The notes below the pieces were generated by a model. It did no database searches. It saw only the letters and a list, made by a program, of their open reading frames with translations, and was not told the origin of the DNA. Both the position numbers and the translations under genes were made by a program. A stretch of 64,000 nt of DNA, from contig NC_053404.1 in assembly GCF_016859285.1 (NCBI RefSeq), positions 21,448,105 through 21,512,104 of the forward strand, in the 5' to 3' direction. Below, piece by piece: positions 4,498 to 17,500 of this stretch. The number at the start of each line of letters is the position of its first letter. The first letter of the stretch is position 1. The stretch is from Xiphias gladius (Eukaryota; Chordata; Actinopteri; Istiophoriformes; Xiphiidae).

Positions 4498-7400
4498 GAC
4501 AGACCGACTCTTTTCTCTGAACTAACCACGTTGCTGTTTCATTTTCACTCTCCTCCTCTTCTCATCCTTTCCTCCATCCCTCCTTCCGTCGTGCGTCAGA
4601 GCTATAAGAAAGCTGTAGACGAGGTCAGTGGCATTCCTCCTCCTTCACCCCCCTTTTCCCGCCGCCATCACTCGTCCGTTCGCTCTCCCCGGCAGTTTCT
4701 CGCGCCGCCCCGGAAAGTTTCGGATATGTCGTTCCTCGCGTCGGCGAAAGATTGGGAGAAGATGAGCTGCTCACTGGCGAGCAGGGCGTGAACCTGAGCA
4801 TTCACTTCTCTGTACCTTCTCCTTTTTAAAATACAGGTTGATTAAGGGCAATAAATAACTTTTAAATATATACTTATCTCAAACCATATAATTACAACCC
4901 TTATGTCAAAACAGGCCTGGTTTTAAATAGCGTTATTTACCCTTCAAGTGAAGGACCTTTAACACAGACACCACAGGTCATTTTTACATATTACGACCAA
5001 TATCGATATTTAACAATATATTGGCCAGTTTCAAACACATGACCTAAACAAACATGTGAGCCAGCCTGTATTATGAATTTTCTTGTCGTCTGTAAATCAT
5101 CTATATATAGTCATTTATCCACTGGCGCATATTTATCTCTGCAGGCAAACTACGAAAGCTATTTTTGGAGTTTTGTTTGGCAATTTTCCTGCTACCCTTT
5201 CTGCCGACATGTACAGCATCAGTGCTATTCGCGCTACTATCTGCTGGTCAGTCGGTATCTATAGCGTGTTGCCCTTCCATTAGGAGCTTAACTGTATTGT
5301 CTTGAAAGAGAGGATGTAGTCCCTCATAAGCACAGTCTGAAAAACATCATTCAGCTCCTTCAGGGCTCCTTTTCGTCTCACTGTTGTGCATCCACTTACT
5401 CCCCGTTCTCATGTTTCATTTCCGCTATCACGAACTCTCTCTCGCTCCCATTTATTCTCTTCTCTCTCTCTCTTTCTCTCATCAGGAGGAGTTGGTAAGA
5501 TAACCTCCCTCCCCAGTCCTCCCACCACCACCGCCACCACCTCAATCACAGCTCCCCCATCTCTTCCTGTCACTTAGCCTCTGGCACGCCGCTAACGGTC
5601 AAAATGCCGCAGAGACTGAATTTAAAAGTACCCCCCCCCCCCGAACTTTAACCTTTAACCTCTAACCCTTGACGCTCCTGCACTGAGGCATCCGTAGTTT
5701 GACTCCCGTCCTCTCTCCTCTCCCTGCACTGTCCGCAGATGAACCTCATTAACAGCTTGCGACCCTTTTATTCTTCTTTTCTGCTTGGTTTAAAAGACAC
5801 TATACTTTCAGGGTGTCCTTACAGACCACTGGTTACTGTCGCATCCTTTCACCGGACCTTTATTTGCAGCTGCAGCTGAAACCAAACGAGATATCTATGT
5901 AATAAACAGCCTCCAAAGATGGACAAATGTCTTTCCACCTGTAATGTAGAATGACCAGAGGCACTGAAAATTTATCAGCAACTATTTTAATAATCCATTA
6001 ATCGTTTAAGTCAAACATTCTTTTGTTTTAGCTTCTCAAATATCTAAATTTCCTGCTTTTCCTTGTCTAAACATGATATTAGAATAAGTATCTTTGGGTT
6101 TTTGGACTGTTGGTCATTCCAAACAAGACACTTGACGACAAAACCTTGGGCTTTAAGAAATTGCGATGAACACAGTATATAAATAAAAAAATGATCAGCG
6201 GATTAATGGATTATGAAAATAATAAACTCTCCGACCAACCAGCAAACGAGAGAGATATGCTGGGTAATCACTAGGCAGATGTTTGAGAATAGAAAGAATG
6301 ATACAAAACCCACAATGTTTTCTTAAAATTAAGCCTGTAATGATGAAAGCGGTGATGTAAGAATAGTCATCATGTAAAAATAGTATTTAGTGCATGAATG
6401 TTAGCATGACAAACACCTGAAAACGTGCTGTCCGTAGTCTGTAGGGACAACGTCCCTCAACCAGCTGGGAATGAAACCTTGTCTCGAGCTCTGAGCTTTG
6501 CTTTCATGACGTTTCCGGCTGTCTTCCTGTCCTGCAGGACCTGACGGCTCTGGCCAAGGAGCTGAGAGAGCTGCGGCAGGGGGAGGAAACCAGCCGCCCG
6601 CCCGTCAAAGTGACGGACTACTCGTCGTCCAGCGAGGAGTCTCACAGCAGCGAGGACGAGGAGGGGGAGGGCGGCGCCAATGACGGAACAGTGGCTGTCA
6701 GCGATATACCACGCATCATGTGAGCATTTAGCATTTAGGTTTGGTTCCTGATAAAATTCAACACACTTCTCCACTGAGCAGAAGAAGGAGTTGCACTGTG
6801 AGGAAGAAGGACGCAATCGCCCACTGGCGTCCCGCACACCGGCGCATACGCTGTCCTACAGTCCTTTTCCCTCGGACCACCTTCAGTGTGCTGCTCCAGT
6901 TGACATCAAAGCGTAACTCAGGACGTCCTGAAAATCTTGTTTTTTACTGACCTCCAGCGGTCTAACGTCTCACCTTGCGACAGTGGCCTGCCGACATCGC
7001 TGCGCTGACCACACGCGGAGGTTAAACGGGCTTGGAACTTTCACCCAGAGGGGGCAGCCAAACACCACTTTTCACCGTGGGGTTAAGTTTTTCTTCAACA
7101 AGCTCAAATTCCAACTGTACCTCTGAACCTGAAGGTCTGGACCCCCCCCCCCAAGGGGTTTCAAGATAAATCCACCAGGGCCCACAAGATTAAAGACATA
7201 AGAAAGAGAAAATCTGTTTCTGAAAACAGCTTCCTTTAAATTACACAATCACGAGAAGGAAGAATCACTGTTCGGTTTAACTGTTCCCGTCTAATGGCCA
7301 CAACTAGATCCTAACATGTGAAGAGGGGTCAAAAATACATACAGACGTAGACTTGACACTCTTTAACATGACCCGTACAAACCCTTAAGATCGTCTTTCC

Positions 7401-13400: not shown

Positions 13401-14488
13401 TAGATCAAGCACACTATGGCTGGGGGTCTTCCTGAGAGTTTGCTACATATCTGATTTGTTTTAACTTTGCTCTGCCCTGTTCTGCAGTGAAGTACGAGAG
13501 GATTAAATTCTTGGTGATTGCTCTGAAGAACTCAGTGGAGATCTACGCCTGGGCGCCCAAACCTTACCACAAGTTCATGGCCTTCAAGGTAAGATGCGTC
13601 AGGATGTGCTCAAGGCCTGACAGAAGCAGATGCGCGGCACGATGTTCATTTATTATTATGCATTTCTCCGTGATGAGACCTCGCTGAGATACTGGATGGG
13701 GAGAAAACGAGAAAACCTTGCACAGAAGATCAGTAAATCAATAGCAGACAAAAGGAGTACCAACACGTGTGAACCTGCTGGTGGGGGACACACGTGGCAT
13801 TAAACAATGTGAAAGACAGAAACTAGATATATCAGCTAACCAACCCATAAACTAAAAAGCAAAGAAATAAATTGCAGGAGTCGTTTTGATTGATTCAAAT
13901 ACAAATCGGCTTCTTACGACAATGTTTTACTAATGAGTTTCAGTATTCAATAAGACACTGCACTAGAATAAAGAAAGGATACCTGATGATTGCCCTTGTA
14001 TTGCGTATCTGTGGAATTATTTACAGATAGATGTCAACGCCCTATTTTCGCTCCACAGACCTGACTGTATATGTTTCAATATTAAATGGGCTTTGTTGGG
14101 CTACTGGCGATACTGTTTTAATTATCACTATTATTATTATTATTTCTGTGTTTATTTTTTCGTGGTTGAGGAGTGTGTCTCTTCTTTTGGGAGAGTTGAA
14201 GGTCTTTAAAGCTGCTAACCAATTTTAATTAGTTTTCCTTTGTTGCCTGTACCTCAGATGTTTAATTAGTCCCTTGTTCTCTTTCTCTCTGTCTGTCAGT
14301 CATTCACTGACCTACAGCATCGCCCCCTGCTGGTTGACCTGACCGTGGAGGAGGGACAGAGGTTAAAAGTCATCTACGGCTCCAGTGTGGGCTTCCACGT
14401 CATCGATGTGGACTCTGGCAACCCCTACGACATCTACATCCCTTCACATGTAAGAGTCTGTGTGTGTTTGTTTGTTTGTTTGTTTGTT

Positions 14489-14536
<48 letters not shown>

Positions 14537-17500
14537 TGTATATGTGTCTAACAGCAGTACTAACAGTCTGAGGCGGCCAATAAAAAACCCAACACACATG
14601 CACACACATCCATCCCTACCTTACCAACACTGGACTGTTAGACTGGACCAATATTTTTTTTCATTTTGAAAAAACCCGTCACAGCAGCAGTGGCTTTGAC
14701 GCTCCAGGTACCAAAGACAAGCGGGGTCAGAACCACAGGCTACACCGCTGGCTCTTTACGGCCAAAAATTAACCCACCACGCTTCCAGTTGCACTGGGAG
14801 CTTCTGTCAGAGCACTTTGGGGTTGGACTTCAAAGCTCACTGAGTCTTAAAAGTATTGAACCCACATCCTCAGAACCTCCACGCATTCCTCTAACACACT
14901 GGTTTATTTGGTCGGAGACACTTGACCACCATTTAAGTCTTTAAGTCTTTCATCGGGGTCTTGGACCAGGTTCGAACCCACAACCTCAAAACGTCATAGC
15001 ACTCTTCTTACACCCTGAGCCTTTTCATCTGACACACTATTTTTTGGAGCATTTGATTCTTAAGGTGTTGGACTTCAAATGTCAGTGAGCCTAATAAGGA
15101 TCAAATCCATGTCCTCAAAACTTCCAAGCACTTCTCTAAAACCCTGAGCTAGTTGCAAAAAGACAATTGATCAATATTTGTCGTTTACACTAGGTGTTGG
15201 ACTTCAGTGCAGCGCCTGAGGACTGAACCCAAGACTTCAAAACTTAAGCGTGATCCTCTAACTACCAGAGCTATTTGACGAGACACTCTTGAGATTCATT
15301 TCTTGGAACATCACAATGATCGAACCCTTGACCTCAAAGCTTCTCAACGGTCATGGTGGCCAAGGGTTAAGGCATTGGAGTAACAGGACCAGGACCATTT
15401 TGAGGAAGTTTTGAGGTTTTGGGTTAGATCTTCAGGCAACTTGTTGGGTGCACCGAAGTCCAATTTCCAAAGGAAAGGTTAAAAATCTCTTAGAAATAGC
15501 GTCTCAGTTTAAAGAGTAAGAGGACTATTCTGGAGTTCTGAGGTCTTGGGCTCGATCCTCAGGCTCTATTTTGAATTTTGTAATCTAATGCCCAAAGTAA
15601 ACAGGCTTTAGGAAATAAGGGTCATTTTTCCAACCGAATAGCTCACAGTGTTGGAAGACTGCTTAGAAGATATGAGGTCGTGAGTTTGATCCTTAGGAGG
15701 CTCAGTGAATTTTGAAGACCAACACCAAAGTTAGGACTGAGAACCGCTCAGAGGGGACTTGGTGGCGCTGTGGGTTTGTTTGTGACGGTATGGGGGGAGG
15801 GGTGCAGTGCGTGGATCGAATAATACCCAGTGCCGGTTCTTGGAGCATCAAAACCAGTCCCGCAGCAGAGCAGAGTGAGGGAGGGGGCTTTCCCCCCGAC
15901 CGCAATTTACATTTTACCGCAACATGGAGGTGGAAGAGTTCTGTAAGTATATATACAGTTATTTGTTTTTGATTGGTATAATGTATTTATAATATAAAGT
16001 ATAATTTTATATAAAGTAATGTTACACGCCGCCACCATCACGAGTGAAGGAATTAAGATTTAAAGGAATAGCTGAGGTAATGAGGGAATCATTGAGTGAC
16101 TGAATGAAGAAATGGTGACTCAGCGCGTGAATGAATGAGGGATGGAGTGGGTGAGTCAGTGTCCTCCTCTAACCCTGGTCTGGTTACAGTCAGAGATGGA
16201 TGGGAGAAGGAGACGGTAACCAAAGCAACCGCCTCACAGTGCTTTTTCTGGCAGTCATGAATCACGCTGTGCTCATGTCTGTTTCCATGGCGATTGCGTG
16301 GCCGAGGAGCGGGAGACTCTATTGTTGCAGCAGTTTCTTCTCTCTCAGGGTGGGGAAGGAGGGGTTAAGGGGGGTACAGAGCCCCTGTAGGCTCACGGCA
16401 GCTCCTAACCCCCTGCCCCCACCCCCTCCAACCCCCTCCCGTGTGTCGCCCCGGCAGATTCAGGGTCAGGTGACCCCGCACGCCATCGTGGTTCTGCCCA
16501 AGACGGATGGCATGGAGATGCTGCTGTGCTACGAGGACGAGGGCGTCTACGTCAACACCTACGGACGCATCACCAAAGACGTGGTGCTGCAGTGGGGCGA
16601 GATGCCCACCTCCGTCGGTACGTCAACCAATCAGCTCGCTTCTCCCTGACCCCTGACCTCTGACCTCTATAGGCGGTCTCAGCAGATCATCTTTCACCCT
16701 CACTATCTACTACACTACCCTTCTCCGTTCAAAGCAACACTCCTCTCTCTCCTCCTGCCTTCTCCTTTCAGTTACACCTTTAAACAAGAAGCCAAGGCTG
16801 TAGTCTCACCTGTTTTCATGACTGCTTAAAGGAATACAACGGGTTTTTGGGAAATCAAATAACCGACTGCTCAACTTGATCATAAATGATGAGAACATAC
16901 AGTGTAGACCCCAAAGTCCTCCGCACGTCCTCCTCAGAGAAACTGTGTTGAGTCCAATCACTTGATATGTGCCCGATTTTGGCTTTATTTCTGTTGAGTG
17001 AGTGGTACGAAGCGCTGTGAAAATGGGAGGAATAAATGACTGGCAGATGTGGCAGAGATGGATGTGGCTGACTGAAAATAAAGACCATAATAGTAATACA
17101 TAATATCTTTACAACAATAATAGGAATAATATAACAATATCCTCTGGAGATAGAGAGGATATAATTCAAATGTTTTATTTTTTAAAAGGTTTTTTATAGG
17201 TTTATACATATCTATATATAAATTCACGTAAATGGGCACTATAGCTGAAAACAATACCAAGTAGAACACTTAATAATCAAATGAATGTTGCAAATATCTA
17301 TGTTCAGTTATTGTTATTATTATGATTGAAAAAAATGATTTATAAACTTAGGCAAAGTGAATTTGCAGGAGCCGAATTCGCTGCTGTAACCCAGGATACG
17401 ATTCTCAGTAGTTTTACATGCAACGAACACACCTGGCTGTGTTCGTTGGTGGGAAGCCAGTGAGGGGTCGCACCTTTATTGCTGCAGTAGTGACTCTGGG

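Follow-up and report, generated by a model that had tools for sequence, protein, structure and literature searches.

Tandem copies of tRNA-like sequence in vertebrate genomes may be clusters of tRNA genes, satellites or parts of mobile elements. Which of these accounts for an array of such units that changes strand midway through an intron was asked here for a window of Xiphias gladius DNA (the window being the whole stretch analysed, 64,000 nucleotides). The preliminary description, made from the sequence alone, took the array for a tandem tRNA-derived satellite that had been inverted in place. The data presented below argue for a different origin: the feature is probably one old, partly deleted copy of an interspersed family of non-autonomous transposons.

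The array in the window

The array consists of eight related units at a spacing of ~115-135, with R1-R5 on the minus strand (14809-15352), F1-F3 on the plus strand (15397-15735) and a mirror axis at ~15395 (Table 1). Twenty-three of the 28 unit pairs outscore all 300 dinucleotide shuffles; for the remaining five, the score was reached by 67 (R1-R5), 3 (F1-F3), 2 (R5-F2), 1 (R2-F1) and 1 (R5-F1) of 300 shuffles. Identity beyond the B-box words had been proposed as the test of kinship. After removal of the 11-base B-box, the similarity of the heads persisted in 21 of 28 pairs, and that of the tails in just 10 of 28 (≤5 of 200 shuffles reaching the score in either case), the tails of R2 and R5 mostly failing. 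Furthermore, leave-one-out nhmmer searches with a profile of the other seven units recovered all eight omitted units, with E values of 7e-5 (R5), 5e-8 (F1) and down to 2e-19, and gave no place below E 1 outside the array in the 64-kb window. Together with the pair scores, these searches bear out the preliminary count of about eight units, the first five on the minus and the last three on the plus strand, at the places described.

Two details had to be revised. The feature as a whole is wider than the extent first given (14858..15700) and reaches from 14611 to ~16036. The second of the proposed "A-boxes", GTGGCCAAGGGTTAAGGC (15356-15373), does not mark the head of a unit: it falls in a central segment that also matches two other loci (L014 and L017), and its distance to the F1 B-box is 65 bases, compared with 44 positions in the unit consensus.

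The stretch 15064-15726 matches its own complement (61.6% identity, E 1e-39). A long RNA stem in the pre-mRNA had been anticipated, and folding of the gene strand indeed predicts one (195 of 299 base pairs span >150 nt; z -7.8 relative to 30 shuffles); the predicted fold of the other strand has a z of -10.8 (30 shuffles).

The array sits in an intron of ~2 kb (exon limits set by eye from the open frames), which had been ascribed to tnik. The downstream exon matches CNH, and the upstream exon piece gave no Pfam match; that the host gene is tnik rather than MINK1 or MAP4K4 is our assumption. Most likely, the window copy is a passive intronic insertion in this gene. Up to the next exon, its terminus B was not found. 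A TG-rich microsatellite, partly (TTTG), is located at 14459-14547, ~40 bases beyond the CA-like tract that flanks terminus A, and may or may not be a part of the original target tract.

Table 1. Feature map of the window copy and the adjoining exon (window coordinates)
Feature	Position	Strand	Basis and remarks
Degenerate CA-rich tract caacacacatgcacacacat, adjoining terminus A	14589..14610	.	Read from the sequence; (TG)n lies outside most A ends elsewhere
Terminus A (terminal inverted repeat)	14611..14633	-	2 mismatches to CCACTGTTGGTAAGGTAGGAATG
A-end domain, partial (model positions 94-224)	14611..14728	-	Profile match, 54 bits; training set includes the window copy
A-side outer domain, inverted form on the B side	14695..14818	-	Profile match, 102 bits
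Unit R1, first position, subtype I	14809..14925	-	Unit profile and subtype clustering
Unit R2, subtype A	14940..15037	-	Unit profile and subtype clustering
Unit R3, subtype C	15047..15170	-	Unit profile and subtype clustering
Unit R4, subtype D	15181..15293	-	Unit profile and subtype clustering
Unit R5, partial (model 40-88), untyped	15304..15352	-	Leave-one-out E 7e-5
Central segment GGTCATGGTGGCCAAGGG..., no unit head	15349..15391	+	Common to L017 and L014 (E 1.2e-5 and 0.001)
Unit F1, partial, subtype J	15397..15484	+	Unit profile and subtype clustering
Unit F2, subtype E	15499..15613	+	Unit profile and subtype clustering
Unit F3, subtype B	15625..15735	+	Unit profile and subtype clustering
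B-side outer domain	15727..15854	+	Match of the A-side outer-domain profile, 74 bits
B-arm remnant	15907..16036	+	nhmmer E 7.9e-7, profile excluding the window copy
Next exon downstream in the host gene, with CNH domain	16458..16617	+	Pfam CNH, E 3.1e-10; limits by eye

A dispersed family of elements

The full array as query gave at least 95 matches in the window's own 690.8-Mb genome, where the window is on contig C5 (40 of 69 candidates scored, self included); those above 100 bits have, self excepted, 67-85% identity. At least 45 matches were obtained with the right half of the array (40 of 47 candidates scored), at least 46 with the B arm (40 of 99, self included) and at least 56 with the A arm (40 of 73, self included). 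Twenty-six loci were read at length (L001 and L009-L033; L002-L008 were omitted, being the same places as L009-L015). Profiles of the parts revealed a layout of end A, outer domain, minus units, centre, plus units, outer domain and end B; a separate profile for the centre was abandoned, as its 120 matches were mostly units found again. Both ends are present in 12 loci: 11 of these have an element of 1.4-3.1 kb, and L030 contains two copies, each 854 bases long. The longest arrays comprise ten unit matches (L013, L015, L028). One-unit copies are present in L030 (twice) and in L101, all with the A- and B-end domains of the family; in L101, the B-end domain was matched and the B motif was not.

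Several loci have peculiarities of their own. In L030 (463-2270), the two one-unit copies lie 954 bases apart, have identical units and share a CA/TG tract, which may be due either to duplication through the microsatellite or to an assembly effect. The end-B motif of L026 is expanded into a minisatellite of ~33-base units (4965-5774). L021 (2954-6716) has terminus A at both ends and a locus-specific interior of 2.6 kb, in which no gene was recognised. A 3.1-kb unit-less copy in L029 contains a degenerate ORF with a weak SCAN-like match (1465-1863, E 0.13), perhaps a nested insertion. On contig C15 (16767770-16791837), end-B and end-A matches are found 24 kb apart in compatible orientation; two copies are likelier here than one large element, since a unit match near the right end is on the wrong strand for a single element.

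Common termini within CA repeats

Read outward, terminus A is CCACTGTTGGTAAGGTAGGAATG and terminus B is TCCACTGTTGGATAGGTAYGCAAG. At least one of these common termini was located in 20 of the 26 loci, in several by loose matching alone, and neither was located in the other six (L009, L010, L013, L018, L022, L023). Ends A and B are imperfect inverted repeats of each other (20 of 26 positions agree in representative ends aligned by eye). Homology common to at least three other loci never extends more than 21 bases beyond a located terminus and frequently ends short of it. A genome-wide pattern search allowing ≤2 mismatches found 33 places for A and 29 for B, and 0 for the reversed patterns.

The sequence beyond the termini is a simple repeat. 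In the defining set, a (TG) run of ≥8 occurs within the next 60 nt at 16 of 17 A ends, and a (CA) run of ≥8 at 14 of 16 B ends. The held-out ends, i.e., all remaining places from the two pattern searches, gave the same picture, with (TG) at 19 of 20 A ends and (CA) at 15 of 17 B ends. A run of ≥8 on the opposite strand was present at 0 of these 70 ends (defining plus held-out), and the background for such runs is ~2% in the window and 1-2% in far flanks. The CA flank is short or missing in L025 (both ends), at end B of L026, and in L071, L099 and L100. Note that these tallies exclude a further A-like end of L014 (4922), whose direction is incompatible, the motif copies in the B arms of L017, L026, L028 and L033, and the inner ends of the L030 pair.

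Because A and B face outward in opposite directions, (CA)n occupies the same strand in both flanks, and the element thus lies within a CA tract. The simplest reading is that this tract was the target of insertion; a target-site duplication is not discernible, because the flanks are themselves (CA)n. The tracts could also belong to the element, its ends seeding microsatellites, a reading that would suit their presence at nearly every located end, their variable length and the interruptions in some of them. We consider this unlikely, since the repeat keeps to one strand on both sides, in contrast to the termini, which are inverted relative to each other.

The same flanks bear on a possible origin by retroposition, in which LINE machinery would have mobilised SINE copies, tandem or nested, with (TG)n as their 3' tail. 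The unit is tRNA-like and (TG)n nearly always lies beyond end A, as such an origin would have it, but end B is followed outward by (CA)n, so that the microsatellite is on one strand on both sides; moreover, an inverted terminal motif is present at both ends, and no isolated unit exists elsewhere in the window. Retroposition is accordingly a rather improbable explanation.

The order of units is inherited

In all 14 loci having units in two orientations, the minus units come before the plus units. For subtype analysis, 113 of 161 units (from 25 of the 26 loci) were clustered, 48 having been dropped beforehand as too short or too weak. Starting at end A, a preferred order of subtypes is seen: B, A, C, D or F, A, B, continued among the plus units by G or H, E, B. 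With a set of adjacencies picked after inspection of the data, the chosen adjacencies occur 37 times, versus 11.5 ± 3.0 in shuffles (maximum 23 in 2000 shuffles). For the 20 loci of known polarity, the chosen adjacencies, likewise picked after inspection, number 29 versus 8.7 ± 2.7 (maximum 20 in 5000 shuffles). The plainest count of order in these 20 loci is that of A and C: C follows A 13 times, and A follows C 0 times.

Units of one locus resemble each other no more than they resemble units of other loci (identity 0.640 and 0.651, respectively), and the nearest neighbour of a unit is in the same locus in only 2 of 113 cases, both in the duplicated L030. Local tandem growth fits these identities poorly, and a classical satellite with local homogenisation was rejected on the same grounds. 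As the mirror arrangement and the order of subtypes are found again at dispersed loci, between common termini, the inverted array must predate the insertion into the window. The preliminary reading, a local tandem tRNA-derived satellite that was inverted inside this intron, would explain the tandem units and the mirror axis of the window copy, but given the recurrence of the mirrored order between common ends and the lack of any closer likeness within loci, it is almost certainly wrong. The window contains a ready-made array that was copied and then decayed, and that did not originate in this intron.

tRNA likeness and possible function of the units

The unit is ~118 nt long, and in its consensus the start of the A-box-like TAGCTCAG is separated by 44 positions from that of the B-box GGTTCGATCC. 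It possesses the tRNA-related head with A and B boxes by which tRNA-derived SINEs are recognised. Compared with tRNA-Thr(TGT) of the same genome, the consensus scores 53, and 200 plain shuffles score ≤35 (only Thr, Cys, Lys and Ala genes were sampled). GAA is found at the anticodon position in 63 of 113 units, a lead towards tRNA-Phe as one candidate source. Pairing exceeds that of shuffles in the T arm (0.835 versus 0.786, reached by 0 of 300), and does not in the D arm, the anticodon arm or the acceptor. The outer domains were also considered as further tRNA units and rejected (best tRNA score 31, shuffles up to 36).

At standard settings, ARAGORN found 0 tRNAs in the window and none on the unit consensus, and Rfam gave no match in the window or in 20 loci; a tRNA gene cluster was therefore rejected. 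Lowering the ARAGORN threshold to 20% produced many weak calls. With introns allowed, a single tRNA-Phe(aaa) was called at ~15412-15569 (score 100, 64-nt intron), which we judge to be a chimera of F1 and F2. The preliminary statement that the array is neither a single SINE nor an ordinary tRNA gene cluster is thus upheld.

Could the array nevertheless give rise to Pol III transcripts with a function, or supply the host with a useful double-stranded RNA from the intron? The A- and B-box geometry, the predicted long stem and the T-arm pairing would be in line with such a role. However, both simplified boxes are matched by just 11 of 113 units (by 0 per set of shuffled units), in 2 of 113 also without TTTT between the boxes, and by none in the window copy; the boxes (conservation 0.78 and 0.80) are less conserved than the tail (0.84); and the 20 loci are devoid of Rfam matches. 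A host function is very unlikely on these counts. Judged by their sequence, the units look too degenerate for Pol III genes, and such a function appears to have been lost.

A putative transposition mechanism

For an interspersed non-autonomous transposon family, the following course of events can be proposed. Multiplication and inversion of the tRNA-derived units would have taken place in an ancestor, and dispersal would have followed; an enzyme provided in trans would have recognised the two ends and placed the element in CA microsatellites; and the copies would afterwards have decayed, losing units by deletion. In the 9 ORFs scanned of the 32 listed for L021 and L029, there was no match to a transposase; the ORFs of these two loci gave weak matches only, all under curated cut-offs. 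Neither a coding member nor an autonomous partner with the same ends was found among the loci read (9 ORFs scanned), and scans of viral contigs found nothing. Tentatively, one might go further and envisage a vertebrate DNA transposon lineage that targets (CA)n and whose non-autonomous members carry a palindromic, ordered tRNA-derived array possibly important for transposition, e.g., by docking the enzyme or Pol III factors or by providing a hairpin substrate.

Relation to known elements

Strictly target-specific DNA transposons are few in number. If the proposed interpretation is true, satellite birth, tRNA-derived repeats and microsatellite targeting would be joined in one vertebrate element. 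A caution also follows: what is seen in a fish intron as a tRNA-like array may in fact be the interior of a transposon. No such element is named in the titles and abstract openings of the literature searched; it may be catalogued in Repbase or Dfam, which were outside this search.

Tandem repeats of tRNA-related origin have been described in other vertebrates. In squamate reptiles, SINE-derived satellites consist of tandem repeats from parts of tRNA-related SINEs (PMC10702118), and in this respect they resemble the present family. They are, however, described as satellite-like loci, and the words "inverted" and "orientation" occur 0 times in the main text of that paper, whereas the family described here has fixed ends and a mirror order. 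Amphibian tRNA-like tandem repeats include Satellite 1 of Xenopus laevis and Hy/Pol III of Hydromantes (PMC9659126), as well as PolIII/TAN of newts, a tandem repeat with a tRNA-related part (PMC10702118). The tRNA-related part is common to all of these, but they are presented as satellites in the passages concerned (PMC9659126, PMC10702118), in contrast to the terminus-bounded element found here.

Related in kind are miDNA4 and Xstir of Xenopus, MITE-borne satellites in which, as here, a non-autonomous inverted-repeat element is associated with a tandem array; unlike for this family, the passages on them mention neither a tRNA-derived unit nor insertion into CA tracts (PMC9659126). Foldback elements, e.g., Tetris of Drosophila virilis, are similar in that inverted arms yield repeat arrays (PMC9659126). 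Compared with Tetris as described there, the present family differs in its tRNA-like units, its CA-tract flanks and its short termini, which are separate from the arms.

With respect to the target, the family resembles CryptonV, a DNA transposon lineage with families said to be microsatellite-specific in insertion, for which a Repbase report on cnidarians is cited (PMC8869645). A recombinase was not seen in the present family. No terminal repeats were found in animal Cryptons according to PMC3212892, whereas this family has inverted terminal repeats. Finally, Dada elements are target-specific DNA transposons of fish that insert into tRNA or snRNA genes with duplications of 6-7 bp (PMC3706591, PMC8869645). 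In the family described here, the tRNA-like sequence is inside the element rather than at its target, and nearly every located end borders on (CA)n instead of a tRNA or snRNA gene, so that membership in Dada was rejected.
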